From: a virus
Reading direction: 5' to 3' (one strand)
Virus record (IMG/VR): IMGVR_UViG_3300042569_000190
Coordinates: 1-30,026 of that record
DNA length: 30,026 nt
Positions within the stretch are counted from its first letter, which is position 1. Each line of letters opens with the position of its first letter. Shown here piece after piece: positions 8,223 through 28,920 of the stretch. Below the pieces are notes generated by a model. That model searched no databases. It was not told the DNA's origin and worked only from the letters and a program-made list of their open reading frames with translations. A program made the translations under genes and the position numbers.

Positions 8223-8229
8223 TTAAAAA

Positions 8230-11986: not shown

Positions 11987-11991
11987 TATAT

Positions 11992-12549: not shown

Positions 12550-12550
12550 T

Positions 12551-13371: not shown

Positions 13372-13374
13372 GAT

Positions 13375-15114: not shown

Positions 15115-15115
15115 A

Positions 15116-16216: not shown

Positions 16217-16227
16217 GACACTTTTAT

Positions 16228-16611
16228 ATGAAATACATATATTTACTTGGTTTATTAATTTTAACGTCTTGTGGTGTAGTTAAAAAGAGTTCTGAAGAAT
16301 CAGTTGTAAAGGATAATAGTACAACTGAAATTGATTTAACTAAATATTCTAATAGTTATACACTTGAACCTGTAGATTTAAGTAAACCTATTTTGTTAGG
16401 AAAAGATACTATTTACAATACAAGAGTTATTTATAATAACACAAAAGAAATAGTTAAAGAAAAAAAAGCTAATAATATTGAGTTTAAAGAAGAAAAAAAA
16501 ACTAAAGAAGTAGATTATTCAGAAACAATTAAAATACTTGGTAATCGTTTAATAATAGCTTTAGTTGTATTATTTGTTTTATCAGCAGTTTTAAAGAAAT
16601 TTACTTTTTAA
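16228..16611 (+). CDS. Unimolecular spanin (u-spanin)
   Basis: A 127-residue protein with a lipoprotein signal at the N-terminus (MKYIYLLGLLILTSCG; lipobox LTSC with Cys15) and a single transmembrane helix at the C-terminus (about 106-122, LGNRLIIALVVLFVLSAVL) followed by KK. The middle is hydrophilic, with a Lys/Glu-rich stretch at about 73-95. A lipid anchor in the outer membrane plus an inner membrane helix in one chain is the layout of u-spanins such as T1 gp11, which fuse the two membranes in the last step of lysis. It directly follows the endolysin. No sequence family is needed for the call; it rests on topology. Confidence 0.75.
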   Translation: MKYIYLLGLLILTSCGVVKKSSEESVVKDNSTTEIDLTKYSNSYTLEPVDLSKPILLGKDTIYNTRVIYNNTKEIVKEKKANNIEFKEEKKTKEVDYSETIKILGNRLIIALVVLFVLSAVLKKFTF

Positions 16612-16682
16612 AAATAATTATATAAGTAAACTTTTTTGAAAACACATAAACAAAACAAAATCAATAACTTAACACACAATTA

Positions 16683-16716
16683 GGTTTACTTTAAAAATCT
16701 ATTTAGTAAACTTTTT
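16683..16716 (+). terminator. Weak terminator candidate after the lysis cassette
   Basis: The arms GTTTACT (16684-16690) and AGTAAAC (16705-16711) are complementary, separated by a 14-base AT loop, with TTTTT following. The stem is AT-rich and overlaps the 3' end of the minus-strand gene, so it may serve both directions or be chance. Confidence 0.3.
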
Positions 16717-17112
16717 AAGTTTTTTTAGTTGTTTACATATTCCCATTTTAGTTACATTTAAATATTCAGCTAATTCAACTTGGTTTAAATATGGGTTTAT
16801 ATTTAATATAGCTACAACTTTATCAATAGTTTTTAAATTTGTATTATTTGCTATATCATAAATTCTTACTTCATCCATAACGTTGTTAACCATTTTTTCA
16901 AATGTCATTTCGTTTTCAGCATCCATTTTAGCATATTGCACTAACCAATACTTAATAGCTTTAATTGCTTTTAAATGTGTTTTAAATGGTTCAATACAAT
17001 GAACATCCCATTTTCCATTTATTTTAGTATACCACCAATAGTCATAACCATCAAATTTTATCTTGTGGTTATTTGGTTTTGCTAATTGCTTGATTTCTTC
17101 GTTACTAAACAT
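16699..17112 (-). CDS. Winged-helix DNA-binding regulator (only minus-strand gene)
   Basis: A 137-residue protein. I start it at MFSNEEIKQL, because the longer frame upstream would run through the promoter. An N-terminal part with DGYDYWWYTKINGKWDVHCIE (locator; Trp/Tyr-rich, about 20-40) looks like a compact beta domain. The C-terminal part, about 95-137, is a helix-turn-helix of winged type: IDKVVAILNINPYLNQVELAEYL followed by NVTKMGICKQLKKLKK. Its divergent placement from the NinG gene, with back-to-back TAnnTTTG promoters between them, suggests a switch or repressor of early genes. No integrase is present, so a lysogeny repressor role is not supported. Confidence 0.6.
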   Translation of the reverse strand: MFSNEEIKQLAKPNNHKIKFDGYDYWWYTKINGKWDVHCIEPFKTHLKAIKAIKYWLVQYAKMDAENEMTFEKMVNNVMDEVRIYDIANNTNLKTIDKVVAILNINPYLNQVELAEYLNVTKMGICKQLKKLKKFTK

Positions 17113-17126
17113 AATAAAAATTTTTA

Positions 17127-17134
17127 CAAATATA
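17127..17134 (-). promoter_or_regulatory. Bacteroidetes -7 promoter element for the regulator gene
   Basis: On the minus strand this reads TATATTTG, the TAnnTTTG element recognised by the Bacteroidetes primary sigma factor. It ends 14 bases before the ATG at 17112. Confidence 0.6.
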
Positions 17135-17182
17135 TATAATAAATTGTTAATAACATATATTTCTTTAAAAATTAAAAAATTG

Positions 17183-17190
17183 TATATTTG
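17183..17190 (+). promoter_or_regulatory. Bacteroidetes -7 promoter element for the NinG gene, leaderless layout
   Basis: TATATTTG ends 5 bases before the ATG at 17196. As transcription starts a few bases after this element in Bacteroidetes, the mRNA would begin at or next to the start codon. Confidence 0.65.
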
Positions 17191-17195
17191 TATCA

Positions 17196-17573
17196 ATGAA
17201 AGTAAAAACTAAATCACAACTAACAAAAGAACTTGATGCGGTGTTTAGTCAATACATTAGACACTCACGTTCAAAGAATGGAATTTGCACTTGTATTACT
17301 TGCGGTAGAGAATATGAAATAAAAAAAATTCAGTGCGGTCATTTTATGTCAAGACAATATATGTCTATTCGTTGGGATGAACGTAATGTAGCAACACAAT
17401 GTTATGGTTGCAACGTTATGCACAGTGGTAGGCAATATGAGTTTAGTTTAAAAATAGGAAAAGAATTATCAGATGAACTATATTTGTTATCTAAAGAAAC
17501 AAAAAAATGGAGTTTAGATGAATTAAAAGATATGATACAACACTACAAAGATAAGCTAAAAGAATTTCTTTAG
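17196..17573 (+). CDS. NinG-like recombination protein
   Basis: A 125-residue protein with the zinc-cysteine pattern of lambda NinG (Rap), which acts on recombination branch points. It has CTCITC (Cys 31, 33, 36), CGHFMSRQY (Cys47, His49), then a basic segment with SIRWDERN and TQCYGCN (Cys69, Cys72). A helical tail follows. NinG proteins are HNH-like and are found with phage annealing recombinases; here an ERF gene lies one gene downstream. The start directly follows a promoter element. Confidence 0.75.
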   Translation: MKVKTKSQLTKELDAVFSQYIRHSRSKNGICTCITCGREYEIKKIQCGHFMSRQYMSIRWDERNVATQCYGCNVMHSGRQYEFSLKIGKELSDELYLLSKETKKWSLDELKDMIQHYKDKLKEFL

Positions 17574-17610
17574 TTTCTATAATTTCTGATTGTTTTCTAA
17601 TTGTTTGAAG

Positions 17611-17640
17611 AAGGAGTAGTTTAACGGCTACTCTTTTTTT
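17611..17640 (+). terminator. Rho-independent terminator after the NinG gene
   Basis: GAGTAG (17614-17619) pairs with CTACTC (17628-17633) around an 8-base loop, with AAG/TTT extension and a seven-T run to 17640. Confidence 0.85.
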
Positions 17641-17644
17641 ATCT

Positions 17645-17695
17645 GTTAAAGTTTTGTTAAAGTTTATTTTTGTATTAAAATTCATTATATATTTG
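17645..17695 (+). promoter_or_regulatory. Early promoter A with upstream GTTAAAG box
   Basis: The -7 element TATATTTG lies at 17688-17695. The box GTTAAAGTTTTGTTAA begins at 17645, 43 bases before the -7 element. The same box is 42 bases before the -7 elements at 23718 and 28291. The box is itself two GTTAA(AG) half-sites 11 bases apart, about one helical turn. It drives the gene at 17720. Confidence 0.7.
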
Positions 17696-17719
17696 CTTCA
17701 TAATTAAAAACAATTACAA

Positions 17720-17890
17720 ATGAAAGATTTAATCGACTACCAAAGATTCCAAGTTGAAGCATTACAAAAACGTATATGCGAACTTGAAAGTAAATTAAAC
17801 GATGTTAAAGCACACATATTTGAATTATGTGATGAAGATTGCCCACAAGAGTATAAAACAATTATTAAACAAAAAACTTACGAATTATGA
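17720..17890 (+). CDS. Small coiled-coil protein upstream of ERF (56 aa)
   Basis: A 56-residue protein starting 24 bases after a good promoter element and overlapping the next gene by ATGA. It starts MKDLIDYQRFQVEALQKRIC and looks like one short coiled coil, with cysteines at 20, 37 and 41 (ELCDEDCP). No family is recognised. Its coupling to the ERF gene suggests a helper role in recombination or an early regulatory role. Confidence 0.6.
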   Translation: MKDLIDYQRFQVEALQKRICELESKLNDVKAHIFELCDEDCPQEYKTIIKQKTYEL

Positions 17891-18465
17891 AACAATTATT
17901 ATTGCACGAAAAATTAAGTAAAATTCAATTTGAATTTAAAGCTAACAAATCAAAATTTAATTCTTTTGGAAAATATAACTTCCGTTCAGCAGAAGATATA
18001 CTTGAGGCGTTAAAACCTTACAATGAAAAATATGGTGTTTATTTTACAATAACTGAAACTGCAGGTGCTTCATCTGAATTACCAATTATTTATTCAACTG
18101 CAACTATTCACGATATTAATGGCGTTCAAGAAATAAGTGCTACTGCAATAGTTGGTGTTGATTTACAACAAAAAGGTATGCAAATTCCACAGGCGTTTGG
18201 TTCAGCTTCATCTTATGGTAAAAAATACGCATTAGGTAATTTACTTTTAATTGATGATACACAAGATGCTGATGCAACTAATACACACGGACGAGATGGT
18301 GCAAAAAATGCGACAACTGAAGATGAGCAAAAATGGTTAAACGTTAACACACCCGAGTTTACAAAAGCTATTGAATATTTAAAAAGTGGTGGAACTATTG
18401 AAGTTATCGAAAAAAAGTATAAATTAGCAGCCAAAACAAAACAAGAACTTTTAAAAGTAAAATAA
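17887..18465 (+). CDS. erf: ERF-family single-strand annealing recombinase
   Basis: A 192-residue protein of the ERF superfamily, which coats single-stranded DNA and pairs complementary strands in phage recombination. Family marks are FGKYNFRSAEDILEALKP (about 27-44), a strand region with IIYSTATIHDINGVQEISAT and the signature GSASSYGKKYALGNLLLIDD (about 100-119) with DTQDAD after it. The C-terminal tail is variable. It acts with the RecE-like exonuclease at 24264 and the SSB-like protein at 18523. Confidence 0.85.
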   Translation: MKQLLLHEKLSKIQFEFKANKSKFNSFGKYNFRSAEDILEALKPYNEKYGVYFTITETAGASSELPIIYSTATIHDINGVQEISATAIVGVDLQQKGMQIPQAFGSASSYGKKYALGNLLLIDDTQDADATNTHGRDGAKNATTEDEQKWLNVNTPEFTKAIEYLKSGGTIEVIEKKYKLAAKTKQELLKVK

Positions 18466-18522
18466 TAAAACCTGAATAGCCGACAACAGAAAAAAAAGGT
18501 AGGCAAAGTAAAATTATATATT

Positions 18523-18825
18523 ATGAGTTCAATTATCAATTTGAGCATTAGAGTTGACAAACTACCTCGTGAAAAGTTTGTAATGGGTAAAGATAACGCA
18601 GTGTACTATAACTGTACATTAAACATTAACGATGAAGCAAACCAATGGGGTCAAAACGTATCGTTAACTGATTCACAAACTAAAGAAGAACGCGATGCTA
18701 AAAAAGCTAAAAACTATTTAGGAAACGGAAACGTAGTTTGGACTGATGGAAACATTAAAGCAGTTAAAAAAGAAGGACAACCTGCAACACAACAAGCAGC
18801 AGTAGAAGTGGATTTACCATTTTAA
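18523..18825 (+). CDS. SSB-like single-stranded DNA-binding protein
   Basis: A 100-residue protein, small and beta-rich (MSSIINLSIRVDKLPREKF, DNAVYYNCTLNIND, WGQNVSLTDSQTKEE), fitting an OB-like fold. The last residues, VEVDLPF, imitate the acidic D-x-P-F tail by which bacterial SSB recruits partners. It lies after ERF and before a terminator. A role in covering single-stranded DNA during replication and recombination is likely; family membership is inferred from the tail and context. Confidence 0.6.
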   Translation: MSSIINLSIRVDKLPREKFVMGKDNAVYYNCTLNINDEANQWGQNVSLTDSQTKEERDAKKAKNYLGNGNVVWTDGNIKAVKKEGQPATQQAAVEVDLPF

Positions 18826-18832
18826 ATTAATT

Positions 18833-18858
18833 GGGTGGTGTAAAAGCCACCCTTTTTT
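18833..18858 (+). terminator. Rho-independent terminator after the SSB-like gene
   Basis: GGGTGG (18833-18838) pairs with CCACCC (18847-18852) around an 8-base loop, followed by TTTTTT. It ends the 17720-18825 unit. Confidence 0.85.
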
Positions 18859-18905
18859 AAATTAAACAATTATTAAAATCAATTTAACACATAAAATAAA
18901 CAATT

Positions 18906-19619
18906 ATGGAAATAAATAAAATATATTGTGAAAGCAATTTAGAAACAATGAAAAGAATGGAAGACAAAAGCATTGATTATGTTTTAACAAGTCCTCCATA
19001 TAACGTAAAAACCGAAAGAATTGCAAAATACAAAGATTTTAAAGATGGTTTTAGTCAAGAACAATATTTTGACCAACAAAAAGAATTGATAACCGAATTA
19101 TTAAGAGTGACAAAAAATCATATTTTTTACAATATTCAAATGTTATCAGGAAATAAAATTGCTTTGCATAAATTAATAGGTCATTTTGCAAATAATATAA
19201 AAGAAATGATTATTTGGCATAAAGGTTTTGGTGAACCTGCAATTAGTGAAAATGTTTTTAATAGTGGTTTTGAATACATTATTGTTTTTTCAAATAATGA
19301 GCCAAACAAAAGATTTTTTAATGACGCTAATTTTAAACGCGGTACACAATCAAACGTTTTTAAAATAGTAAATTCACATTCAAATCCTTTTGCAGCCGTA
19401 CACAAAGCAATAATGCCTTTGGATATACCTCGATATTTTATGATAAATTTCGGAAAAGAAAATGACATTTGGTATGATCCGTATATGGGAACAGGAACAA
19501 CTGCAGTAGCTTCAATAGAAGAAAAAAGAAATTGGATAGGTAGTGAAATATCAAAAGAATATGTAGATTTAGCTAACAAAAGATTAAAACCTTATTTAGA
19601 CCAACAAACATTATTTTAA
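18906..19619 (+). CDS. Orphan DNA methyltransferase, beta class
   Basis: A 237-residue methyltransferase. The catalytic motif VLTSPPYN lies near the N-terminus (residues 26-33) and the S-adenosylmethionine site DPYMGTGTTAVAS near the C-terminus (191-203). This order (catalytic motif first) defines the beta class. TSPPY is more usual for N4-cytosine than for N6-adenine enzymes, but this does not settle the base. No cognate endonuclease is adjacent; the nearest candidate is the MjaI-like protein at 22193. The gene holds one of only three GATC sites in the genome (19476). It may shield phage DNA from host restriction. Confidence 0.85.
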   Translation: MEINKIYCESNLETMKRMEDKSIDYVLTSPPYNVKTERIAKYKDFKDGFSQEQYFDQQKELITELLRVTKNHIFYNIQMLSGNKIALHKLIGHFANNIKEMIIWHKGFGEPAISENVFNSGFEYIIVFSNNEPNKRFFNDANFKRGTQSNVFKIVNSHSNPFAAVHKAIMPLDIPRYFMINFGKENDIWYDPYMGTGTTAVASIEEKRNWIGSEISKEYVDLANKRLKPYLDQQTLF

Positions 19620-19871
19620 ATGGAACGTAAAGAAATATTTTATTGTAACTTAACTTTACAAAATGGTAAAGATATTTTATGTTTAAAAAATGTTGTTTAT
19701 AAATATACAGATGGATATTTTAAAAATAAAAGATTAGGTGTATCAGAACCTTTAAAAGTTTTAAAAGTTGATGTTATTCATAGTTTAGGTTTTGAAAATA
19801 AAACAAATGAATATTTAGAATTTAAAAAATCAAATGAAAAAAGAAATAACATAACCGGTGCATATGAATAA
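19620..19871 (+). CDS. Hypothetical protein after the methyltransferase (83 aa)
   Basis: An 83-residue protein whose ATG immediately follows the methyltransferase stop. It starts MERKEIFYCNLTLQNGKDIL and is beta-rich and basic toward the end (FKKSNEKRNNITGAYE). No family is recognised. The lack of any gap suggests it travelled with the methyltransferase as a unit. Confidence 0.55.
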   Translation: MERKEIFYCNLTLQNGKDILCLKNVVYKYTDGYFKNKRLGVSEPLKVLKVDVIHSLGFENKTNEYLEFKKSNEKRNNITGAYE

Positions 19872-19881
19872 TTTAATTTAA

Positions 19882-19889
19882 TACATTTG
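19882..19889 (+). promoter_or_regulatory. Bacteroidetes -7 promoter element for the ATPase gene
   Basis: TACATTTG ends 12 bases before the ATG at 19902. It overlaps an in-frame TTG at 19887, so that TTG cannot be the start and the ATG is preferred. Confidence 0.65.
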
Positions 19890-19901
19890 CAAAAAACAAT
19901 T

Positions 19902-20753
19902 ATGACAGAACAAGAAACAATTAATAGAATGTTAATGCAAGTACTTGAAGAAGATTGCTACATTAACCCTGAACAAGAAATAGAATACCCAATACCTGCT
20001 ATTAGTTGTGGTGAAAAAGAATACGAAACTAAAGATGGTTATAAATGTTATCCTATTCCAATAGGTACTTATGGTAACTTTTCATTTATACAAGCACCAC
20101 CAAAGAGTAAAAAAACGTTCTTTATTTCGCTTTTAAGCGGTGTTTATATGAAAAATGAACTACAAGGTTTTGGTGGTAATTTACGAGGTAATAGACAAAA
20201 TAAACACGTTATACATTTTGACACCGAGCAAGGGAATTTTCACGCATCGTTAGTTTTTAAAAGACCATTACAAATGACAGGTGAAAAAGATGATAAATAC
20301 CACACTTACGCATTACGCCAATTAGGTTTTAAAGAACGAGTTTCTTTTATTGAATATATACTTTACGATAAATTAGAAGGCAACGATATTGGTTTAGTCA
20401 TTATTGATGGTGTTGCTGATTTATGTGCTGATGTTAATAACATAGAACAAGCAAGTGAAGTTGTACAACATTTAATGCGTTGGTCAAAAGAATTAAATTG
20501 TCATATTGTAACGGTTATTCACTCAAATTTTGGAACTGATAAACCAACGGGACATTTAGGTAGCTTTTTAGAAAAGAAAGCAGAAACACAAATACAATTA
20601 GAACTAAACACAGTTAATAAAGAACTTGTTAAAGTAAGTTGCAAAAGAAGTAGAAACGCAAGTTTTGAAGATTTTAACTTTAAAGTAAACAATTTTGGAT
20701 TGCCACAGGTTGAGGGTGATTTATACGATATATTAAAAGATATAAAATGTTAA
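19902..20753 (+). CDS. RecA/AAA_25-like ATPase with altered Walker A
   Basis: A 283-residue P-loop protein. The Walker A region reads FIQAPPKSKKTFFISLL (about 66-82 from this start): the Lys-Thr pair is kept, but both glycines of GxxxxGKT are replaced. Walker B is GLVIIDGVADLCAD, and a sensor-like strand is HIVTVIHSN. Related Bacteroidetes proteins show GKxKSRKT, so a weakened loop may be normal for the family. RepA/AAA_25 proteins of this size act as replicative helicases or loaders. Placement in the replication region supports that role. Confidence 0.65.
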   Translation: MTEQETINRMLMQVLEEDCYINPEQEIEYPIPAISCGEKEYETKDGYKCYPIPIGTYGNFSFIQAPPKSKKTFFISLLSGVYMKNELQGFGGNLRGNRQNKHVIHFDTEQGNFHASLVFKRPLQMTGEKDDKYHTYALRQLGFKERVSFIEYILYDKLEGNDIGLVIIDGVADLCADVNNIEQASEVVQHLMRWSKELNCHIVTVIHSNFGTDKPTGHLGSFLEKKAETQIQLELNTVNKELVKVSCKRSRNASFEDFNFKVNNFGLPQVEGDLYDILKDIKC

Positions 20754-20764
20754 TAACTTATTAA

Positions 20765-20772
20765 TAAATTTG
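20765..20772 (+). promoter_or_regulatory. Bacteroidetes -7 promoter element, leaderless layout
   Basis: TAAATTTG ends 4 bases before the ATG at 20777, so the transcript probably starts at the start codon itself. Confidence 0.6.
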
Positions 20773-20776
20773 AACA

Positions 20777-21073
20777 ATGGAAAACTTAACTATTAAAAAT
20801 CATTTGCACGAATTACAAGTAAGCACATCAAGAATGTTGGTTTACAATTCCGATAATCCTGAATTATTATCTTACTTTAAAGATGTTACTTTTAAGTTAC
20901 AAATGATTGAACAATTATTACAAGTTGATTCTGTTTTAGATTGGTCTGCTATTGAAGGAGCTTATAAATCGATTTTAAATCAAGATTCTGAACTAACTGA
21001 TGTTGATATACGCATTAGTTTAAAACCTGCAATAGAACAAAAGGTAGCGAAGATTTCGGCTAAATTATATTAA
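20777..21073 (+). CDS. Hypothetical helical protein (98 aa)
   Basis: A 98-residue, mostly helical protein starting MENLTIKNHLHELQVSTSRM, with no Cys, membrane segment or catalytic motif. It begins right after a promoter element and is followed after 1 base by a membrane protein gene. I do not recognise the family. Confidence 0.55.
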   Translation: MENLTIKNHLHELQVSTSRMLVYNSDNPELLSYFKDVTFKLQMIEQLLQVDSVLDWSAIEGAYKSILNQDSELTDVDIRISLKPAIEQKVAKISAKLY

Positions 21074-21074
21074 T

Positions 21075-21287
21075 ATGATATACATTCTTTTATTTTTTTC
21101 TTTAATCTTATTTTCTTTGACTTTAGCAGTTCAGCAAGGTAAAGACGTAAGATTAGCTATTATCAATGGTTTTATGATTGGTGCTTTATACGATGTAGAA
21201 GAAGCTGATGATGAAAAATGGCACACGCTACAAATATTAGTAGGAATACTATCAATCAACATTTTATGGGAAACGAATCAATATTAG
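21075..21287 (+). CDS. Small membrane protein (70 aa)
   Basis: A 70-residue protein with an N-terminal membrane segment (MIYILLFFSLILFSLTLAV), a conserved-looking middle (QQGKDVRLAIINGFMIGALYD, locator) and a second hydrophobic stretch at about 52-65 (LQILVGILSINILW). I recall this type in Bacteroidetes phage early regions, without known function. It overlaps the sigma-like gene by 22 bases. Confidence 0.6.
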   Translation: MIYILLFFSLILFSLTLAVQQGKDVRLAIINGFMIGALYDVEEADDEKWHTLQILVGILSINILWETNQY

Positions 21288-21787
21288 AACGAGTTGCTAA
21301 ATACCATAGTGATTGGGTAGAACTTGCTGCAGTTTTTGACAAAGATTGGGCGGATGACATTGTGCAGGAAATGTATCTTTTATTGCATAAATACAAAGTA
21401 ACCGAACAACAAATGTTTACCAATGGTAAAATCAATAGAGGTTATGTGTTTATCATAATAAGAAACATACACTTTCAACTTCATAATATTAGAAAACGTA
21501 TTGATAAATGTGAATTAAACGATGATATTTATAATTTAATTGATGATTATTCTGAAGAAAAAGAAATTGAATGGGATGATTTCAGAACAAAAGCTGAAGA
21601 AGAAGTTAATAGTTGGGAATGGTACGACAAAAAACTATTCACTTTGTACCGAGATAATAAAACATCAATACGCAAATTAGCAAAAGAAACCGGTATTAGT
21701 TTTGTTTCTATATTTCACACATTGAAAGCTAATAAGCAAAAGCTGAAAAGGTTACTACAAGATGATTATGACAACTTAAAGATTTAA
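21266..21787 (+). CDS. Sigma-70-like (ECF-type) transcription factor
   Basis: A 173-residue protein that I start at MGNESILERV (ATG); an upstream in-frame TTG would add 16 residues inside the membrane protein gene. Residues 29-40, ADDIVQEMYLLL, match the helix of sigma region 2 (as in AEDLVQE). The C-terminal SIRKLAKETGISFVSIFHTL forms a region-4-like helix-turn-helix. Together these suggest a small sigma factor or sigma-like activator that redirects host RNA polymerase, perhaps to virion genes. The divergence is large, so DNA-binding regulator is the safe minimum. Confidence 0.6.
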   Translation: MGNESILERVAKYHSDWVELAAVFDKDWADDIVQEMYLLLHKYKVTEQQMFTNGKINRGYVFIIIRNIHFQLHNIRKRIDKCELNDDIYNLIDDYSEEKEIEWDDFRTKAEEEVNSWEWYDKKLFTLYRDNKTSIRKLAKETGISFVSIFHTLKANKQKLKRLLQDDYDNLKI

Positions 21788-21822
21788 AATTAAAAAAAAT
21801 AATAAACTTAAAGATTTAAAAA

Positions 21823-22191
21823 ATGGCTAAAAGAAAATCAAAAGGACTTGGTGATACAATAGAACAAATCACTGAAGCAACAGGAATTAAAAAAGTAGTT
21901 GAAGCAATTTCAGAAGCTACAGGTGTTGATTGTGGTTGTGGTGAACGTAAAGAACTATTGAATAAATTGTTTCCTTACAAACAAGCTGAATGTTTAAACG
22001 ATGAAGATAACGAATGGTTAACTAATTTCTTTTCAACTACAAATAATCAGTTAACACCAAAGCAACAAAACAGAATTATTGATATTTACAAAAATGTATT
22101 TAATCAAAACATTCAACCATCGAATTGTGGTTCTTGTTGGAGAGACAGAATAAACGAATTAAAGAAAATTCACGAAACACAAAACAAATAA
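21823..22191 (+). CDS. Conserved phage protein with CGC and CGSC motifs (122 aa)
   Basis: A 122-residue protein starting MAKRKSKGLGDTIEQITEAT, with GIKKVVEAISEATGVDCGCGERK next (locator). Cysteines occur as DCGCGE (about 36-41) and CGSCW (about 101-105), possibly a metal site. I recall GLGDTIE...CGC proteins as widespread in Bacteroidetes phages, with no known function. A 1-base gap joins it to the MjaI-like gene. Confidence 0.6.
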   Translation: MAKRKSKGLGDTIEQITEATGIKKVVEAISEATGVDCGCGERKELLNKLFPYKQAECLNDEDNEWLTNFFSTTNNQLTPKQQNRIIDIYKNVFNQNIQPSNCGSCWRDRINELKKIHETQNK

Positions 22192-22192
22192 T

Positions 22193-22855
22193 ATGTTTAT
22201 AAACCCTAACAGAAGGTTTGAATTAACCATAGATAAAAAGATTTTCAGTTCTTTAAATAAAGACAAAAAAATATCTTATCTGTTTAGGAGTTCAAATGTT
22301 GGAAAATGTGCTGCTTTATTTGATGATTACTACCATTCTGTAAATGGCAATATTATATCACAAGATTGGTTTATATATTATAGCAGAAAAATAGGTGTTG
22401 ATGTAATTATAAAGGTGTCTAAAGAACTTGAAAAAATAACTAATTTAAGTTATGATAATTGTTTTAAATATGCAAAATTTAGAATACTTGGTCAAACTTG
22501 GAATGGTATGCTAAACGAAATTGATTTAATAAACGAACTTAAAAAAGAGTTTCCAAATATTGAATTTAAAAAAGCACCTTATAATTTAGATGAAAACTAT
22601 TTTACTGATTGGGAAGCATACACAAACGGAAAGTTATTTTTAGGTTTACAAATAAAGCCAATAACGTATCAGTATATGAATACACCTTATCAGAATCAAG
22701 CAAAGTTAAATCACGAAGCACAAAGGCAAAAGTATAAAGATGAATTTAAAGTTGCACATTTTTTAATATACTACGAAGATAATAAACTACACGAAAAGCA
22801 AAAAGTAATTGATAAAATAAATACATTATTAATAAATTTAATAGAAGTTAAATGA
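22193..22855 (+). CDS. MjaI-like PD-(D/E)xK endonuclease
   Basis: A 220-residue protein resembling the MjaI restriction endonuclease family (type II enzymes for CTAG). The core is TWNGMLNEIDLINEL (about 102-116), then FTDWEAYTNGKLFLGLQIKP (137-156). Asp139 with Gln153-Ile-Lys155 gives a D...(E/Q)xK nuclease centre, with an upstream Glu109. The end AHFLIYYEDN resembles the family's last strand. The genome itself shows no CTAG by eye, so the enzyme could cut host or rival DNA without self-harm. It is clustered with early genes, not with the methyltransferase. The function is inferred from family resemblance. Confidence 0.6.
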   Translation: MFINPNRRFELTIDKKIFSSLNKDKKISYLFRSSNVGKCAALFDDYYHSVNGNIISQDWFIYYSRKIGVDVIIKVSKELEKITNLSYDNCFKYAKFRILGQTWNGMLNEIDLINELKKEFPNIEFKKAPYNLDENYFTDWEAYTNGKLFLGLQIKPITYQYMNTPYQNQAKLNHEAQRQKYKDEFKVAHFLIYYEDNKLHEKQKVIDKINTLLINLIEVK

Positions 22856-23202
22856 ACAATATACAATTAGAATATTTAAAGCAAGTAATACTGTCACAGT
22901 TGTTATTAGAATGCAATGAAAATTTACGCTTTACAGTGCAATACAAGCAACAAATTAAGAACAGAATAAACTTACTTAACAAAGACTTAGAAAGTGTCGT
23001 ACATAAAGAATACACAAGTATTTATAAAACAGACCCTGAAATGACTACAAACATTTTAAGTAAGATTGAAAGTTTGGTTACTAAATTAAGTACTTCAACA
23101 CTTGATGAATTAATTATGATTGATGCAGTTATTGATAAGTACAACGATAACAAAGAATGGTTTAAAGAATACGCTGAAGCTGAATTTTTAAAGATTGAAT
23201 AA
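22852..23202 (+). CDS. Helical hypothetical protein (116 aa)
   Basis: A 116-residue protein starting MNNIQLEYLKQVILSQLLLE, almost all helix and without recognisable motifs. Its ATG overlaps the nuclease stop (ATGA), so the two are probably made together. A partner or inhibitor of the nuclease is possible, but only by position. Confidence 0.55.
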   Translation: MNNIQLEYLKQVILSQLLLECNENLRFTVQYKQQIKNRINLLNKDLESVVHKEYTSIYKTDPEMTTNILSKIESLVTKLSTSTLDELIMIDAVIDKYNDNKEWFKEYAEAEFLKIE

Positions 23203-23203
23203 T

Positions 23204-23410
23204 ATGACACTAAAAGAAAAGTTTGAAGATTTTATTGACCAAAATAGTTTTCAAAAAGAAAATTACGATGCAATAAAATGCGAACAAATAGCAGACGATT
23301 ATGCTATTGAGTTTGCAGAATGGTCTGTAGCAAGAGCTATTGGATTAGATTCTTTTAAGTTAAACAATGGAGAATTAGAAACATTCAAAAAAGAGAAAGG
23401 GTATGAGTAA
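23204..23410 (+). CDS. Small acidic protein (68 aa)
   Basis: A 68-residue protein. I start it at ATG 23204 and not at the in-frame TTG 9 bases earlier. It contains CEQIADDYAIEFAEWSVARA and ends in ETFKKEKGYE. Short proteins of the form 'cAxIAxxYAxxFAEW' are common in phage early regions and have no known role. It overlaps the next gene by 8 bases. Confidence 0.55.
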   Translation: MTLKEKFEDFIDQNSFQKENYDAIKCEQIADDYAIEFAEWSVARAIGLDSFKLNNGELETFKKEKGYE

Positions 23411-23633
23411 AATAACACCACTACATTATATGACAGAATCAAGAGTTGACGTTATAGACTTTTGCAAAATGTACGAAATGAATTTTAATCGTGGCAACAT
23501 AGTTAAATACTTGGCACGAGCAGGTAAAAAAGATAATGAACTTGATGATTTACGAAAGGCATTAAACTATTTACTTCGGGAAATAGAACACCACGAAAAG
23601 TTGCAAGAAGAATGGATTGAAAATAATAAGTAG
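23403..23633 (+). CDS. DUF3310 protein (SaV-like)
   Basis: A 76-residue protein of the DUF3310 family, common in tailed phages. The motif LHYMTESRVDVIDFCK leads to FNRGNIVKYLARAGKKDNEL (about 28-47) and DLRKALNYLLREIEHH. It is annotated in other phages as SaV-like or loosely as a nucleotide kinase; I see no P-loop, so its function remains open. The stop codon lies within the stem of a terminator. Confidence 0.75.
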   Translation: MSKITPLHYMTESRVDVIDFCKMYEMNFNRGNIVKYLARAGKKDNELDDLRKALNYLLREIEHHEKLQEEWIENNK

Positions 23634-23652
23634 GGTAACACCTACTTTTTTT
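23628..23652 (+). terminator. Rho-independent terminator overlapping a stop codon
   Basis: AAGTAGG (23628-23634) pairs with CCTACTT (23641-23647) around a 6-base loop, then a T run. The stop codon TAG (23631-23633) is part of the stem. Confidence 0.8.
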
Positions 23653-23675
23653 ATATTTTAATGCTACGCATTTAT

Positions 23676-23725
23676 GTTAAAGTTTTGTTAAGATGTTAAT
23701 AAGTAAAAAATAAGTTATATATTTG
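23676..23725 (+). promoter_or_regulatory. Early promoter B with upstream GTTAAAG box
   Basis: The box GTTAAAGTTTTGTTAA begins at 23676 and the -7 element TATATTTG is at 23718-23725, 42 bases on. It drives the gene at 23749 and probably the long early run to about 26530. Confidence 0.7.
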
Positions 23726-23748
23726 CTGAAACAATTAAAAACAAGTAT

Positions 23749-23934
23749 ATGGAAACATTTAAGTATCGTGGTCAAGAAATACAAGTTAATTACCACACTG
23801 TGCCTGTAAAAGGTGAATTGGATGAAGTTATTATTGGTTCAGTATTTTATGAAGGTACTGATATAACAATGATACTATCACAAGATGATGAACGTGAAAT
23901 ATTAGAAACAATTTACGATAAACTAAACAACTAA
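23749..23934 (+). CDS. Early hypothetical protein (61 aa)
   Basis: A 61-residue acidic alpha/beta protein starting METFKYRGQEIQVNYHTVPV. It is the first gene after promoter B, with a 23-base leader. Being the first early gene makes a host-takeover role plausible, but no family is recognised. It shares its last base with the next ATG. Confidence 0.55.
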   Translation: METFKYRGQEIQVNYHTVPVKGELDEVIIGSVFYEGTDITMILSQDDEREILETIYDKLNN

Positions 23935-24140
23935 TGAAAGCACAAGTAATAAACGAATTGGATAGTTTAATTCAATTAACAAAGGATTTAGAAAACGTAT
24001 ATATTCAAAACAGATTACGTTACGTTAAAAAGCTATTGCTTACTGATTGGAATGAATCAGATTTGTATTACCAACAAATTAGAGAAGTATTAAAAGCAGA
24101 TGAAACAATGAATAATTTAAACGATTTAAACATAAGATAA
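23934..24140 (+). CDS. Early helical hypothetical protein (68 aa)
   Basis: A 68-residue helical protein starting MKAQVINELDSLIQLTKDLE, ending NNLNDLNIR. It is coupled to the previous gene by an overlapping stop and start. There are no recognisable motifs. Confidence 0.5.
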   Translation: MKAQVINELDSLIQLTKDLENVYIQNRLRYVKKLLLTDWNESDLYYQQIREVLKADETMNNLNDLNIR

Positions 24141-24141
24141 T

Positions 24142-24243
24142 ATGGAAGAATATAGTGATTGTTGTGGTGCATCAAGACACCATATATTTAACGAACTATG
24201 TGCTGATTGTTTAGAACATTGTTCTTTTGAAGATGAAGATTAA
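24142..24243 (+). CDS. Tiny zinc-ribbon-like protein (33 aa)
   Basis: A 33-residue frame with two Cys pairs, SDCCGAS (Cys 7, 8) and LCADCLEHC (Cys 20, 23, 27), and an acidic end (FEDED). The form CCGA...C-x2-C is seen in small phage zinc-binding proteins. It sits 1 base after the previous gene. Confidence 0.55.
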   Translation: MEEYSDCCGASRHHIFNELCADCLEHCSFEDED

Positions 24244-24263
24244 CATTTAAAAACAAATAAGAT

Positions 24264-25028
24264 ATGATAACAACCTTTGACAATAAGCAATGGAATAAAG
24301 AAGAAATTCTTGCTAATATGTATGATGATAGTTTTTACTATGGTTACTTGGGTCAAAACGCATTAAGTAGTTCAAGTATTAAAACATTAATATCATCGCC
24401 TAAAACGTATTACTTTACAACCAAATATGGTAGTGGTGAAACACAAGCTTTGCGTGATGGTAGATTATTTCACACAATGATATTAGAACCTGAAAAGTTA
24501 GATGATATTATCTTTGTAGATGCAGCAACAAAAGCAAGTAAAGAATTTAAACTTGCAAAAGAAACAGGAAAAGAAGTTTACACTAAAAGCGAAAAGAAAG
24601 CTGCTGAACGTTTATGCGATGCTTTATTAAGAAATGAAGCAGTAAAAGAATACTTAACAAAAGCAGAATATGAAGTACCACAAATAGCAATGATTGATGG
24701 AATACCTATTAGAGCAAAAGCAGACATATTAAAAGGCAATACTATTATTGATTTAAAAACCACAACAGGAATAAAAGATTTTAGATACAGTGCTGACAAA
24801 TATTCTTATGATTTACAAGCTTGGTTATATCGTGAAATGTTTGGTGTAGAAAACTTTGTATTCATAGCTATTGACAAAGGTAGTTTAGACATAGCAATAT
24901 TTGAATGTAGTGAAGAATTTTACGCAAAAGGTAAAGAAAAGTTTGAACAAGGTGTAAGCAACTATAAATACTTTTTTCAAACACAAGGTGTTGATTTAGA
25001 CCAATACGTTTTAAGGGGTGTATTATAA
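24264..25028 (+). CDS. RecE-like 5'-3' exonuclease (PD-(D/E)xK)
   Basis: A 254-residue nuclease of the exodeoxyribonuclease VIII/RecE-like type, which resects double-stranded DNA for the annealing protein. Motifs in order are ALRDGRLFHTMILEP (62-76, His70), IPIRAKADIL (147-156, Asp154), TIIDLKTT (160-167, Asp163 and Lys165) and YSYDLQAWLYR (180-190, Gln185). Together they form the PD-(D/E)xK centre with the QxxxY motif. It partners the ERF protein at 17887. It is followed by coupled small genes. Confidence 0.8.
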   Translation: MITTFDNKQWNKEEILANMYDDSFYYGYLGQNALSSSSIKTLISSPKTYYFTTKYGSGETQALRDGRLFHTMILEPEKLDDIIFVDAATKASKEFKLAKETGKEVYTKSEKKAAERLCDALLRNEAVKEYLTKAEYEVPQIAMIDGIPIRAKADILKGNTIIDLKTTTGIKDFRYSADKYSYDLQAWLYREMFGVENFVFIAIDKGSLDIAIFECSEEFYAKGKEKFEQGVSNYKYFFQTQGVDLDQYVLRGVL

Positions 25029-25255
25029 TGGAATTAACAAAAGATGAAGCATTTGCAATGACACTTTATGATATATCACAAGGTGAAACATTAGAAACAA
25101 TGCGATACGTTTTAAAAGATTATGAAGAACGTGAACAATATGAAGTTTGTGCAGGAATACATTTAGCAATAGAAGTATCTTCATTTTTAACACTTACTGC
25201 AGTTGTAGAAGAATTTAACCCAATAGAATTAGAATTAACATTTGATGAATTATGA
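25028..25255 (+). CDS. Small acidic protein (75 aa)
   Basis: A 75-residue, strongly acidic protein starting MELTKDEAFAMTLYDISQGE and ending in ELELTFDEL. Its start overlaps the exonuclease stop (TAATG) and its stop overlaps the next start (ATGA). The charge would suit a DNA mimic or a nuclease partner, but no family is recognised. Confidence 0.5.
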   Translation: MELTKDEAFAMTLYDISQGETLETMRYVLKDYEEREQYEVCAGIHLAIEVSSFLTLTAVVEEFNPIELELTFDEL

Positions 25256-25458
25256 CACCAAAAGAAAAAGCAAAAGAGCTATTTGATAAATTTGTAGATT
25301 TAAGTGGTATTTTTGTAGGTGATTATGAAAGTGAAAAATCAATGTGTTTAATAGTAGTTGATGAAATATTAGAAAGTCATTATAAATTATTATCAGGAGT
25401 AAATCCTTCTGTATATAAATATTGGCAAGAAGTTAAACAAGAAATAGAAAAGTTATGA
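25252..25458 (+). CDS. Small early protein with MTPKEKA start (68 aa)
   Basis: A 68-residue protein starting MTPKEKAKELFDKFVDLSGI, with CLIVVDEILESH in the middle and YWQEVKQEIEKL at the end. I recall this layout as very common in Bacteroidetes phages and prophages, always without known function. It is coupled at both ends by ATGA overlaps. Confidence 0.65.
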   Translation: MTPKEKAKELFDKFVDLSGIFVGDYESEKSMCLIVVDEILESHYKLLSGVNPSVYKYWQEVKQEIEKL

Positions 25459-25916
25459 TAATAGAAAAAATAAAACAAGAAACAGGGATTGATGTAACCT
25501 TAAAAAGTAGGAAACGTGAACAAATAGAAATGAAAACATTAGCATCATTTTTATTAAGACAAAAAGGTTTATCGTTTACTCAAATAGGAAAAGAACTAAA
25601 CCTAAACCACGCAACTATAATACACCATTTAAAAATATACCCAAGTGTAAAACATTACAATCCACGAATTCAAGAAATAGAAAACATATTAGTTGGAAAG
25701 AAACCTGATTTAGTAGTTGAATCATTACAAAAAACAATCGAATTAAAAGACAAAGAAATAAAAGAACTTAATTCAAGAATAGCACAACTACAAACAAACA
25801 AGAACATAACACGCTTGATTGATTTGTTAGACAATGAAGACATACAAATGAAGTTTGAAGCATTTTTAACTATTAACGAAAAAGCAAGATATTATAAAAA
25901 ATATGAAACTATTTAA
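25455..25916 (+). CDS. DnaA domain IV-like DNA-binding protein with coiled coil
   Basis: A 153-residue protein. Residues about 17-62 (SRKREQIEMKTLASFLLRQK, then LSFTQIGKELNLNHATIIHHL) match the C-terminal helix-turn-helix of DnaA: an Arg/Lys start, an 'R-x-x-A-x-x-L' helix, IG, and NHATIIH in place of DHTTVIH. It lacks the AAA+ ATPase part. A coiled coil follows (about 95-115, KTIELKDKEIKELNSRIAQL). It could mark the phage origin or redirect host DnaA boxes. Its location near the terminase suggests a replication or transcription regulator. Confidence 0.6.
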   Translation: MIIEKIKQETGIDVTLKSRKREQIEMKTLASFLLRQKGLSFTQIGKELNLNHATIIHHLKIYPSVKHYNPRIQEIENILVGKKPDLVVESLQKTIELKDKEIKELNSRIAQLQTNKNITRLIDLLDNEDIQMKFEAFLTINEKARYYKKYETI

Positions 25917-26139
25917 AAATTATAGAGTGATTAAATTTCAAGGAAAATTTATTGCTCAAACAAGAAAATGTTTTTTATTTCATTGGCAAGGAATAGGACA
26001 ATACAATTTAAGTTTATGGGATACTTTTGAATACCAAATAACACGTTGTTCATTTGATACGCTTGAAGAAGCAAATGAGCATTTAAAAAAGTATAAAGAT
26101 TTTACCAAAAAAAATAAAACAAAGTATCATTATGAGTAA
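25903..26139 (+). CDS. Small basic protein (78 aa)
   Basis: A 78-residue basic, aromatic-rich protein (FKNYRVIKFQGKFIAQTRK, FLFHWQGIGQYNLSLW) with EEANEHLKKY near the end. The repeated 'F-x-G-x-F-x-x-Q' and the 'T-x-E-E-A' helix look like a small alpha/beta fold seen in many phage orphans. Overlaps of 14 and 8 bases link it to its neighbours. Confidence 0.55.
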   Translation: MKLFKNYRVIKFQGKFIAQTRKCFLFHWQGIGQYNLSLWDTFEYQITRCSFDTLEEANEHLKKYKDFTKKNKTKYHYE

Positions 26140-26245
26140 TTTACAACGCATACAAAGAGTAATGAACTTCTATTATAAAAGAGGTTGTAATAAAGAATCA
26201 GTAAATAGATTGTATTATAAAATACTAAAAGATAAATTTAAATGA
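26132..26245 (+). CDS. Tiny basic protein (37 aa)
   Basis: A 37-residue basic helical frame with IQRVMNFYYKRGCNKESVNR. It overlaps both neighbours (8 and 4 bases), the usual tiling of phage micro-genes. No family is recognised. Confidence 0.5.
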   Translation: MSNLQRIQRVMNFYYKRGCNKESVNRLYYKILKDKFK

Positions 26246-26373
26246 CAAAAGAAACACTTATATTACTTCTTGAATACATAAGAGATAATTGTATTGAAAC
26301 AAGTACAGGTTGGCAAATGAATGGTAAAGATTATTCAGATAAAGAAATAGTTGAACAATTTAAAAACAAATAA
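26242..26373 (+). CDS. Tiny acidic protein (43 aa)
   Basis: A 43-residue frame starting MTKETLILLLEYIRDNCIET, then GWQMNGKDYSDKEIVEQF. Its ATGA start overlap and regular residue pattern support coding. The function is unknown. Confidence 0.5.
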   Translation: MTKETLILLLEYIRDNCIETSTGWQMNGKDYSDKEIVEQFKNK

Positions 26374-26374
26374 G

Positions 26375-26530
26375 ATGGGAGATTTTACAATGTGCGATGG
26401 TAAGAATTGCGATTTAGCAACTACCTGTTATAGATATAAAGCTGAACCAAGTTTATACAGACAAAGTTATTTTGTTGATGCACCTATTGAAAATGGTCAA
26501 TGTGATTACTATTGGGAAGTAGAAGATTAA
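26375..26530 (+). CDS. Small Cys-motif protein (51 aa)
   Basis: A 51-residue protein with CDGKNCDLATTCYRY (Cys 7, 12, 18) and GQCDYYWEVED (Cys 43). The spacing of four cysteines suggests one zinc site. Similar 'C-x4-C-x5-C...YF...C-x-Y' proteins are familiar in Bacteroidetes phages. It is the last gene before the terminase operon. Confidence 0.6.
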   Translation: MGDFTMCDGKNCDLATTCYRYKAEPSLYRQSYFVDAPIENGQCDYYWEVED

Positions 26531-26579
26531 CAATAACTTAAACCTATTATTTTTAAATTGATAATAAAATTTTTCAATT

Positions 26580-26831
26580 ATGGAAGATAAAAGAAAAGGT
26601 AACGGTGGTCATCCAAACAGTGGTCGTAAATCAAAAGCTGAAGAAGTAGCAATGATTGAAAAGTTAAAGCCATTAGAACCAAAAGCATTTGAAGCATTAA
26701 AGAAAGGTTTAGACAATGGTGACTTTAAATTTGTTCAGTTGTTTTACAATTACTATGCAGGTAAACCACGAGAAACAAAAGATATTACTTTGAATAGTGA
26801 ACAACCATTATTCAATATAAGCGATTTATAA
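26580..26831 (+). CDS. terS: Terminase small subunit
   Basis: An 83-residue protein placed 18 bases before the large terminase gene. Residues 9-20, GGHPNSGRKSKA, match the 'GG-x-P-GAGRK' start of small terminases, with EEVAMIEKLKPLEPKAFEAL next and FVQLFYNYYAGKP as the end motif. The small subunit recognises the packaging site and feeds DNA to the large subunit. It is short for the family, as is usual in Bacteroidetes phages. Confidence 0.7.
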   Translation: MEDKRKGNGGHPNSGRKSKAEEVAMIEKLKPLEPKAFEALKKGLDNGDFKFVQLFYNYYAGKPRETKDITLNSEQPLFNISDL

Positions 26832-26849
26832 GCCATTTAAAACACTTTT

Positions 26850-28019
26850 ATGAGTGAATTTGTAGTTACTACTGCAATTAAAAAGATGTTGCGTTTAAAC
26901 AAGCGTAAACGTATTATACAAGGTGGAACATCAGCAGGTAAAACTTTTGGTGTTCTGCCTATACTTATTGATAAAGCTATACGAGAACCTTTGCTTGAAA
27001 TTAGTGTAGTATCAGAATCAATACCACATTTGCGTAGAGGTGCTTTAAAAGACTTCTTAAAGATTATGATGATGACCAATAGGTATCGTGATATTCAATT
27101 TAACAAATCAACTTTAAAGTACACATTTGCAAACGGAAGTTACATTGAGTTCTTTAGTGTTGACCAACCTGATAAACTACGAGGTGCAAGACGTAATATA
27201 CTTTACATAAACGAATGTAACAATGTACCGTTTGAAGCATACAATCAACTTGCAATACGAACAAGTGGTGATATATGGTTGGACTACAATCCAACTAATG
27301 AATTTTGGGTACATAGAGAGGTTTTAAAGGACGAAGATTCTGAATTGATAGTACTTACTTATTTAGATAATGAAGCGTTACCACAATCAATAGTAAAAGA
27401 AATAGAACTTGCAAAAGCGAAAGCAGTTGATAATGAATATTGGGCAAATTGGTGGCAAGTGTACGGACTTGGTCAAGTTGGACGTTTAGAAGGTGCTTGT
27501 ATTCCTAATTGGTCTGAAATAGAATTACCACCCGAAGCAAGGTTGTTGTGTTATGGTATGGACTTTGGTTATAGTGTTGACCCTACAAGTTTAATTGGTT
27601 TATATAAATACAACGATGCTTATATATTTGATGAAATCATTTATCAAAAAGGTTTATTGAATAGCGATATAAACAATCTATTAAAAGCAAACGATATTAC
27701 TGAAATGATTTACGCTGATTCTGCTGAACCTAAATCTATTGCTGAATTAAGTGGTTATGGTAATATGATATTACCTGTAACAAAAGGCAGGGATAGTGTT
27801 ATTTACGGAATCAATTTAATGAATCAAAACAGAATATACGTAACAAGTAGAAGTAAGAACTTAATAAAAGAATTAAGAAACTATACTTGGATGCAAGATA
27901 AAGAAGGCAACACACTTAATAAACCTATTGATGCTTTTAATCACGCTATTGATGCAGCACGTTACGCATTTACTTCACAGTTAGAAAATCCACACAAAGG
28001 AAACTATTATATTTACTAA
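26850..28019 (+). CDS. terL: Terminase large subunit
   Basis: A 389-residue packaging motor. The ATPase has Walker A IIQGGTSAGKTFG (about 22-34) and Walker B ILYINECNNV (locator near 118-127). The nuclease has CYGMDFGYSVDPTS (about 230-243, first Asp), MIYADSAEPKSI (about 286-297, second Asp) and PIDAFNHAIDAARYA near the end (third Asp). It cuts concatemers and drives DNA into the prohead. The short length is still complete for both domains. It shares a base with the next start. Confidence 0.92.
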   Translation: MSEFVVTTAIKKMLRLNKRKRIIQGGTSAGKTFGVLPILIDKAIREPLLEISVVSESIPHLRRGALKDFLKIMMMTNRYRDIQFNKSTLKYTFANGSYIEFFSVDQPDKLRGARRNILYINECNNVPFEAYNQLAIRTSGDIWLDYNPTNEFWVHREVLKDEDSELIVLTYLDNEALPQSIVKEIELAKAKAVDNEYWANWWQVYGLGQVGRLEGACIPNWSEIELPPEARLLCYGMDFGYSVDPTSLIGLYKYNDAYIFDEIIYQKGLLNSDINNLLKANDITEMIYADSAEPKSIAELSGYGNMILPVTKGRDSVIYGINLMNQNRIYVTSRSKNLIKELRNYTWMQDKEGNTLNKPIDAFNHAIDAARYAFTSQLENPHKGNYYIY

Positions 28020-28180
28020 TGACATACGGTGAAATCATAGCAACAATAGAATGCTACATTTATTTAAAGACAAATCAAAATGTGCTAATAGCTATGCCTC
28101 GTAATATAGGTGAAATAAAGAAAATGAAATCAATGTATGAAGTAGCTAAACAAGAAGTTGCTTATATGTTGCAAGTTTAA
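28019..28180 (+). CDS. Small protein after terminase (53 aa)
   Basis: A 53-residue protein starting MTYGEIIATIECYIYLKTNQ, coupled to terL through TAATG. It has no visible domain beyond two short helices (IKKMKSMYEVAKQEVAYML). The function is unknown. Confidence 0.5.
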   Translation: MTYGEIIATIECYIYLKTNQNVLIAMPRNIGEIKKMKSMYEVAKQEVAYMLQV

Positions 28181-28232
28181 TTATATTCATTTAAATATAA
28201 TATCGTTTATTTTGTTGATTTTATATTCATTT
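28181..28232. repeat. Pair of 12-base direct repeats upstream of promoter C
   Basis: TTATATTCATTT occurs at 28181-28192 and 28221-28232, exactly 40 bases apart, in the gap before promoter C. It could be an operator pair (about four helical turns apart) or chance in AT-rich DNA. Confidence 0.45.
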
Positions 28233-28248
28233 GCGTATAGTTGTAAAT

Positions 28249-28298
28249 GTTAAAGTTTTGTTAAAGTTTGTAAAAAGTTTTGTATGTTCACAACTTTG
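28249..28298 (+). promoter_or_regulatory. Promoter C with upstream GTTAAAG box
   Basis: The box GTTAAAGTTTTGTTAA begins at 28249. A -33-like TTTG (28267-28270) is followed after 20 bases by CAACTTTG (28291-28298), one mismatch from TAnnTTTG. The box-to--7 distance is 42 bases, as in promoter B. It drives the small genes from 28334. Confidence 0.6.
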
Positions 28299-28333
28299 TG
28301 TAATTTTACACCATCAAACAAAAACAATTAATT

Positions 28334-28483
28334 ATGAAATCATCTAAAGTTACTATCGAAATCGCATTTAACAATCAACTTGAATTTGTTACTTTTACAA
28401 ACACAACTGTTTGGGAAGCAATGAAACAACTTAAAAAGAAATATGGCGAAGTTTTAATTTATGATGTTAAAGCTGAATATTAA
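28334..28483 (+). CDS. Small protein after promoter C (49 aa)
   Basis: A 49-residue protein, MKSSKVTIEIAFNNQLEFVT then VWEAMKQLKKKYGEVLIYDV. It has a two-strand, one-helix, one-strand pattern. The base choice is more C-ending at the start, suggesting good expression. No family is recognised. Confidence 0.55.
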   Translation: MKSSKVTIEIAFNNQLEFVTFTNTTVWEAMKQLKKKYGEVLIYDVKAEY

Positions 28484-28501
28484 TAATAACAATTAGAAAT
28501 T

Positions 28502-28639
28502 ATGAAAACAATTACAGGAGTATTATCAGCATCAGTAGCAATGTCAAGCAACGATTATTTTGTACAAGCAGCATTTGCATTATTAACCTTTTATTTAATA
28601 TATCGTGAACTTAAAAGCGATGAAAAATTGTCTGAATAA
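28502..28639 (+). CDS. Small membrane protein (45 aa)
   Basis: A 45-residue frame with one probable membrane segment (AAFALLTFYLIY, about 23-34) and a charged tail (RELKSDEKLSE). It overlaps the next gene by 20 bases. The function is unknown; it is too far from the lysis genes to be called a holin. Confidence 0.45.
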   Translation: MKTITGVLSASVAMSSNDYFVQAAFALLTFYLIYRELKSDEKLSE

Positions 28640-28829
28640 AGGAATCACTATTTACCCTGTTGTGATAGATGATACTTATTTTGTAGGCAAAAGAAAAATC
28701 AATTACGTTAAAATAGAAATAAACGTAAATGGTGCAAAGAAATTAGGAAACGATAAATACAAACAAGATGAAACACTAACACAAAAAGTGTTTGAATTAT
28801 ATGAAGTATTAAATTTAAAATTAGTTTAG
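28620..28829 (+). CDS. Small basic protein (69 aa)
   Basis: A 69-residue beta-rich basic protein starting MKNCLNKGITIYPVVIDDTY. I prefer this ATG to the in-frame GTG 15 bases upstream. It shows GKRKINYVKIEINVNGAKK and a C-terminal helix (TQKVFELYEVLNLKLV). A terminator follows, so it ends the transcript from promoter C. No family is recognised. Confidence 0.5.
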   Translation: MKNCLNKGITIYPVVIDDTYFVGKRKINYVKIEINVNGAKKLGNDKYKQDETLTQKVFELYEVLNLKLV

Positions 28830-28849
28830 AGTTAGTTAAATTGGTAAAG

Positions 28850-28878
28850 AAGGCAATCAGAAATGGTTGTCTTTTTTT
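28850..28878 (+). terminator. Rho-independent terminator before the tail operon
   Basis: AAGGCAATC (28850-28858) pairs with GGTTGTCTT (28865-28873), with two G:T pairs and a 6-base loop, then a T run to 28878. Confidence 0.8.
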
Positions 28879-28920
28879 GTTTTATACAATTACCACTTTA
28901 ATTAATTTTTAAAATAAAAT

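Follow-up and report, generated by a model that had tools for sequence, protein, structure and literature searches.

The window, that is, the whole stretch of DNA analysed, comprises 30,026 nucleotides and is the entire IMG/VR virus record IMGVR_UViG_3300042569_000190, the virus itself possibly being incomplete. A gene for a predicted MjaI-family restriction endonuclease was found where an earlier reading made from the letters alone (the sequence-only reading) had placed it, in a genome devoid of the tetramer CTAG. Expected tetramer counts here and throughout are trinucleotide Markov estimates, and counts are given as observed/expected.

22193..22855, + strand: predicted MjaI-family PD-(D/E)XK nuclease of 220 amino acids (aa); ATG start, intact open reading frame (ORF)
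1..30026, no strand: total absence of CTAG, presumed to confer self-immunity; 0 observed vs 50.7 expected

On its own the window protein gave no match in Pfam, PHROGs, NCBIfam, the PDB or cultured phage records, and its family was revealed solely through relatives, PADLOC and plasmids. A scan of viral contigs recovered 42 relatives sharing 40–99% identity with the window protein, and none was recovered in two scans of bacterial genome contigs. PF09568 (RE_MjaI) was matched by 19 of 25 aligned relatives, with a best E value of 4.5e-8, and the PADLOC model REase_II by 24 of 25 aligned proteins, the window protein scoring 1e-13. A tblastn search of plasmids with the window protein matched three records annotated as MjaI family restriction endonuclease (E 2e-12 to 5e-10), and these annotated enzymes themselves exceed the PF09568 cut-off. 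Residues D139, Q153 and K155 are invariant in the 25 aligned phage proteins and in an alignment extended to two Bacillota MjaI-family enzymes. On this profile and alignment evidence the ORF is assigned to the MjaI family, whose namesake, R.MjaI of Methanocaldococcus jannaschii (PF09568), is specific for CTAG. The likeness to R.MjaI consists in PF09568 profile similarity among the relatives and a D...Q-x-K core conserved in aligned family members, whereas the window enzyme differs in being phage-encoded, in having no conserved methyltransferase partner and in occurring in carriers without CTAG.

An AlphaFold (AF2) model of the nuclease had a predicted local distance difference test score (pLDDT) of 86, and its top structural neighbours were mostly PD-(D/E)XK nucleases, including Hjc (Z 8.7, root mean square deviation (rmsd) 3.0 over 102 residues) and BsaWI (Z 7.9, rmsd 3.0 over 123 residues). 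No MjaI-family structure was among these neighbours and a Foldseek search with the model was weak (best E 0.16); the fold neighbours are thus supportive of the family assignment but not strong evidence in themselves. A single non-significant match to pentraxin in the PDB profile search was discarded. Comparison of the window gene with its relatives gave nonsynonymous (dN) values of 0.011–0.265 and synonymous (dS) values of 0.18–1.12, indicating purifying selection. The MjaI-type assignment of the sequence-only reading therefore holds in the profile search and structure prediction that it had proposed as checks, and its catalytic core, D139 with Q153-I-K155, was found with all three residues at those positions.

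The absence of both CTAG and CATG, also part of that reading, was confirmed, with CATG at 0/66.7. Synonymous-codon shuffling of the coding part of the window gave a mean of 42.9 CTAG and a minimum of 29 in 300 shuffles. The non-palindromic pair CTGG (0/58.8) and CCAG (0/24.3) is missing as well, GATC is at 3/50.9 and GGCC at 0/5. CCAG/CTGG is also gone from most of the window's lineage, and a search by family for a gene behind this loss found none. In a related group (G014, G016, G019-G023 and G031) CAGG/CCTG is strongly depleted and CCAG/CTGG is normal.

CTAG loss in carriers of the nuclease gene

A set of 173 non-redundant contigs was compiled, 46 of which bear the MjaI-like gene. CTAG was at zero in all first-fetched loci bearing the gene and summed to 0/1497 over the 46 carriers; of the 136 tetramer classes no other was at zero in these contigs. 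Among contigs with at least 10 CTAG expected, all 44 with the gene were CTAG-free compared with 46 of the 117 without it (Fisher p 1.6e-14, a nominal value, the contigs being related). CTAG absence hence tracks the gene, as emerged from the comparison of phages with and without it that the sequence-only reading had suggested. Two carriers, from a group with the MjaI-like gene only, separate CTAG loss from CATG loss: G044 has CTAG at 0/48 and CATG near normal at 50/54, and G043 has CTAG at 0/64 and CATG at 13/65. CTAG is somewhat under-represented in gene-free phages too (619/1277), and in CTAG-avoiding phages that instead carry a 133-aa nuclease, described below, it leaks to 39/1338 as opposed to exactly zero with the MjaI-like gene.

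The same contrast was observed outside phages. Two unrelated Bacillota replicons, Paenibacillus pSC2 (510 kilobases (kb)) and the Brevibacillus replicon CP139434 (414 kb), contain PF09568 matches, and the count of WWCTAGWW over the whole of each is 0, whereas five sister replicons related through RecG and without PF09568 contain 36–159. WWCATGWW occurs 321 times in pSC2 and 255 times in the Brevibacillus replicon, and in 200 kb sampled from the two, CTAG was found 0 times with approximately 290 expected.

An exchangeable slot and two further nucleases

The nuclease gene lies between two small genes, p31 and p33, with an exonuclease-like gene further downstream.

21823..22191, + strand: p31, upstream slot neighbour, 122 aa, cysteine-containing; ends 1 base before the nuclease start
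22852..23202, + strand: p33, downstream slot neighbour, 116 aa; 4-base overlap with the nuclease stop; matches phrog_9957 (5e-10, unknown function)
24264..25028, + strand: DUF3799 / PDDEXK_1 protein, exonuclease-like; PF12684 1.1e-18, PF12705 9.5e-9

In relatives p33 also forms the slot boundary, and 37 of the 46 MjaI-like genes, together with 52 of 77 genes for the 133-aa protein, were scored directly between p31 and p33. The 133-aa protein occupies this slot in phages otherwise near-identical to the window; its model is of the PD-(D/E)XK type and resembles Hjc (Z 11.7, rmsd 2.4 over 104 residues), while searches of Pfam and PADLOC returned no family for it and PHROG matches were weak. A tree of the neighbouring core gene encoding the DUF3799 / PDDEXK_1 protein, which is possibly a processing partner of the nuclease, placed at least 8 changes of slot occupant on well-supported branches and 17 by parsimony. 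Between G032/L006 and L194 the core proteins are identical and the nucleases different.

Two further phage nucleases repeat the pattern seen for CTAG with other tetramers. In the 77 contigs with the 133-aa nuclease CATG was at 0/1731 after trimming the first 1.9 kb of G002 and the first 0.4 kb of L190 as suspected foreign sequence; in untrimmed loci it was at 4/1499, with all four in L190. A clade with this nuclease only lacks CATG and has CTAG at approximately 0.6 of expected, and in slot-switching lineages both tetramers are absent or nearly so. Both are likewise absent from a 9 kb contig in which tandem cassettes, p31-133aa-p33 and p31-MjaI-p33, lie side by side (L011:298-6239). Four relatives with an empty slot retain all three palindromes (CTAG 47/91, CATG 51/80, GATC 78/64). 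The third occupant, a 125-aa nuclease, was first met in four contigs with GATC at 0/50, from which GATC was named as its candidate before a wider scan was made. In 80 loci with this nuclease, 39–100% identical and some of them from GC-richer viruses in which CTAG and CATG are close to normal, GATC was at 1/1653; the four contigs sit within these loci and contribute about 50 of the 1653 expected, so that the test was not wholly independent. Each slot occupant is thus associated with one missing palindrome.

The 125-aa family is also present in cultured phages, with 44 records that are mostly of Pelagibacter phages and include Puniceispirillum and Roseobacter phages. WWGATCWW was at 0 in five of five cultured carriers (HTVC019P, HTVC011P, HTVC115P, HMO-2011 and CRP-143), whereas it occurs 23 times in CRP-1, a gene-less phage that shares its host strain with CRP-143, and 32 times in HTVC010P, also gene-less, on the shared host HTCC1062. 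In HTVC019P the gene is flanked by those for DNA polymerase and an exonuclease, and ribonucleotide reductase is close by; in HMO-2011 it is beside ribonucleotide reductase and near MazG, neighbourhoods that would suit a role in host DNA recycling.

Several additional observations were made. Nearly all stray CTAG, CATG and CTGG of G002 and L190 lie at one end (G002:1-1900 and L190:1-400), which suggests that these ends are foreign or chimeric. A phage with a 38% identical homologue of the 133-aa protein (L447, OX376641.1) lacks AGCT, CATG, CCGG, GATC and GGCC in the 31 kb read and has normal CTAG. Further candidate slot genes encode a 149-aa protein (L307:5033-5479) and an HNH-like protein (L333:5621-6112). 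Two Bacillota plasmids, NZ_CP116888.1 (L274, 722 kb) and CP009417.1 (L275, 603 kb), have WWGATCWW at 0; MutH and DpnII were considered as the cause and rejected, MutH being matched only at E 0.01 and interrupted by stops and DpnII giving no match.

Proposed function and alternative explanations

These data make it quite probable that the window gene encodes a lone MjaI-family Type II restriction endonuclease that cuts CTAG, with self-immunity through loss of the site, and is aimed at host DNA, rival DNA or both. The phage would be protected by a genome without CTAG and not by CTAG methylation, and in an infected cell all DNA with the site would be open to cleavage. For the host chromosome this would perhaps lead to nucleotide recycling with the phage exonuclease; rival genomes in the same cell would be attacked too. 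We infer CTAG cleavage by the window protein, its timing and its target; host DNA and rivals are both possible, host DNA being somewhat more likely. The slot p31-nuclease-p33 is exchangeable, and in related phages it has the 133-aa (CATG-linked) or the 125-aa (GATC-linked) nuclease in place of the MjaI-like one, or is empty. The self-immune attack nuclease proposed in the sequence-only reading, directed at host or competitor DNA, is in this way supported by the family assignment and CTAG counts.

Elements of such a system are familiar from elsewhere. T4 endonucleases II and IV likewise attack and degrade host DNA and spare phage DNA, although in T4 discrimination relies on modified cytosine and not on missing sites. 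Immunity through absent sites is known for PacI, described in PMC3488263 as a solitary restriction enzyme, without a methyltransferase, from a host strain that has none of its recognition sites; PacI belongs to the HNH enzymes, comes from a bacterium and has a site of 8 bases, whereas the window enzyme is a phage PD-(D/E)XK protein with a presumed 4-base site of which approximately 50 would be expected in the genome. Restriction-modification (R-M) systems of giant viruses, chloroviruses and marseilleviruses among them, include viral restriction enzymes proposed to act against host DNA or competitors (PMC7253447), but those viruses protect themselves with a methyltransferase. PMC11620839 describes PhiPA3 gp210, a phage endonuclease harming a co-infecting phage, which differs in that it is an HNH homing enzyme encoded in an intron and directed at one specific gene. 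Phage site avoidance is analysed in PMC6286503 in relation to host-encoded systems, and the open-access papers searched contained no account of lone restriction enzymes in phages combined with complete loss of their sites.

A number of observations weigh against the proposal. No gene in the window is assigned to the absence of CATG and CCAG/CTGG or to the near-absence of GATC. The 46 gene-less contigs that are CTAG-free need another cause, be it an earlier occupant of the slot, pressure from rivals or restriction by the host. Within the lineage of the window the gene cannot be separated from the loss of the site, because CTAG is missing too from near-identical phages that have the 133-aa nuclease in place of the MjaI-like one, such as G003; the discriminating evidence therefore comes from other lineages. 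A phylogeny-controlled test over 8 independent pairs, with approximately 1.9 in agreement, 0 in disagreement and 6.1 showing no difference, was underpowered and not significant. For the 125-aa family, which was sampled via carrier loci, the cultured gene-less controls amount to three phages, and one of these, the 147 kb Pelagibacter phage HTVC008M (NC_020484.1, L445), has WWGATCWW at 0 with the 125-aa gene undetected; another cause or another nuclease is possible there.

The alternative that survives best is a version of the self-immune nuclease and not exclusive of it, in which the enzyme serves mainly for interference between co-infecting phages and not for host DNA degradation. Neither site is present in lineages that switch between the CTAG and the CATG nuclease, as though each had been purged by rivals with the other enzyme; interference competition is an established activity of one phage homing endonuclease (PMC11620839), and competitors have been proposed as targets of marseillevirus R-M systems (PMC7253447). 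Past occupation of the slot could, given the well-supported switches, also explain the double loss, however, and the position of the 125-aa gene in HTVC019P, between DNA polymerase and exonuclease genes and near ribonucleotide reductase, suits host DNA recycling. Interference as the main role is accordingly advanced here only tentatively.

The sequence-only reading had itself cautioned that CATG is also absent and that CTAG loss may come from host restriction. In that case CTAG would have been purged by CTAG-specific R-M systems of the hosts, and the phage nuclease would do an unrelated job such as junction resolution, a role to which the Hjc resolvases among its fold neighbours lend some colour. 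Phages of the window's lineage lack several palindromes at once, also where the MjaI-like gene is absent, and that viruses avoid the sites restricted by their hosts is amply documented (PMC6286503). Against this, the lost site follows the slot gene across lineages, being CTAG with the MjaI-like, CATG with the 133-aa and GATC with the 125-aa nuclease; the unrelated Bacillota replicons give the same CTAG contrast; phages of the same host differ by gene, with one exception; and CTAG is exactly zero with the gene and not with the 133-aa nuclease in its place. The CATG part of the caution stands, and a host-restriction origin of the CTAG loss, weakened by G044, the Bacillota replicons and the same-host phages, now appears unlikely.

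A conventional R-M system would require a methyltransferase supplied by the phage or the host, and the window does encode a candidate 2.6 kb upstream of the nuclease.

18906..19619, + strand: N6_N4 DNA methyltransferase; PF01555 3.8e-30

A genome protected in this manner would not need to lose every CTAG, however, and of the 46 carriers only 9 have the methyltransferase family, while in 11 carriers of at least 20 kb (contigs that may be incomplete) it was not detected. The sequence-only reading had likewise suggested that the enzyme could be used without a protecting methyltransferase. No cognate methyltransferase of the kind that defines a Type II R-M system is conserved with the nuclease, nor does a methyltransferase gene adjoin the nuclease in pSC2 or CP139434, although at least the Brevibacillus replicon has methyltransferases elsewhere. 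The window methyltransferase is probably not a protecting partner, and a conventional system is very improbable. Spread of the slot genes as homing endonucleases into empty slots, to which repeated exchange and the empty slots might point, is just as improbable, since the family is one of Type II restriction enzymes and a homing enzyme, with its long recognition site, would not clear a whole genome of a 4-base palindrome.

With the lone, self-immune restriction endonuclease as the preferred explanation, the combined data make it reasonably probable that phages quite generally practise immunity by omission, in which several families of small lone restriction endonucleases (for CTAG, CATG and GATC so far) each force total loss of their own palindrome, in one exchangeable slot here and elsewhere in cultured marine phages. 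Word composition would then record past and present nucleases and possible co-infection partners. The customary interpretation of short-palindrome avoidance in phages is evasion of host restriction, but in these phages it may instead be the imprint of their own nuclease. If so, missing words could predict the specificity of uncharacterised phage nucleases, a prediction made once here, when four contigs pointed to GATC and the scan of 80 loci bore this out. The arrangement further points to a way in which a lone restriction enzyme, though toxic, can be carried stably, and it raises the possibility that phages in the same cell exert selection on one another's word usage. The 125-aa family occurs in cultured Pelagibacter, Puniceispirillum and Roseobacter phages and the idea is therefore testable with existing isolates.

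Elsewhere in the window, positions 11992-12549 encode a NUMOD3-motif protein that occurs in few of the window's relatives and is possibly part of a homing-type element.
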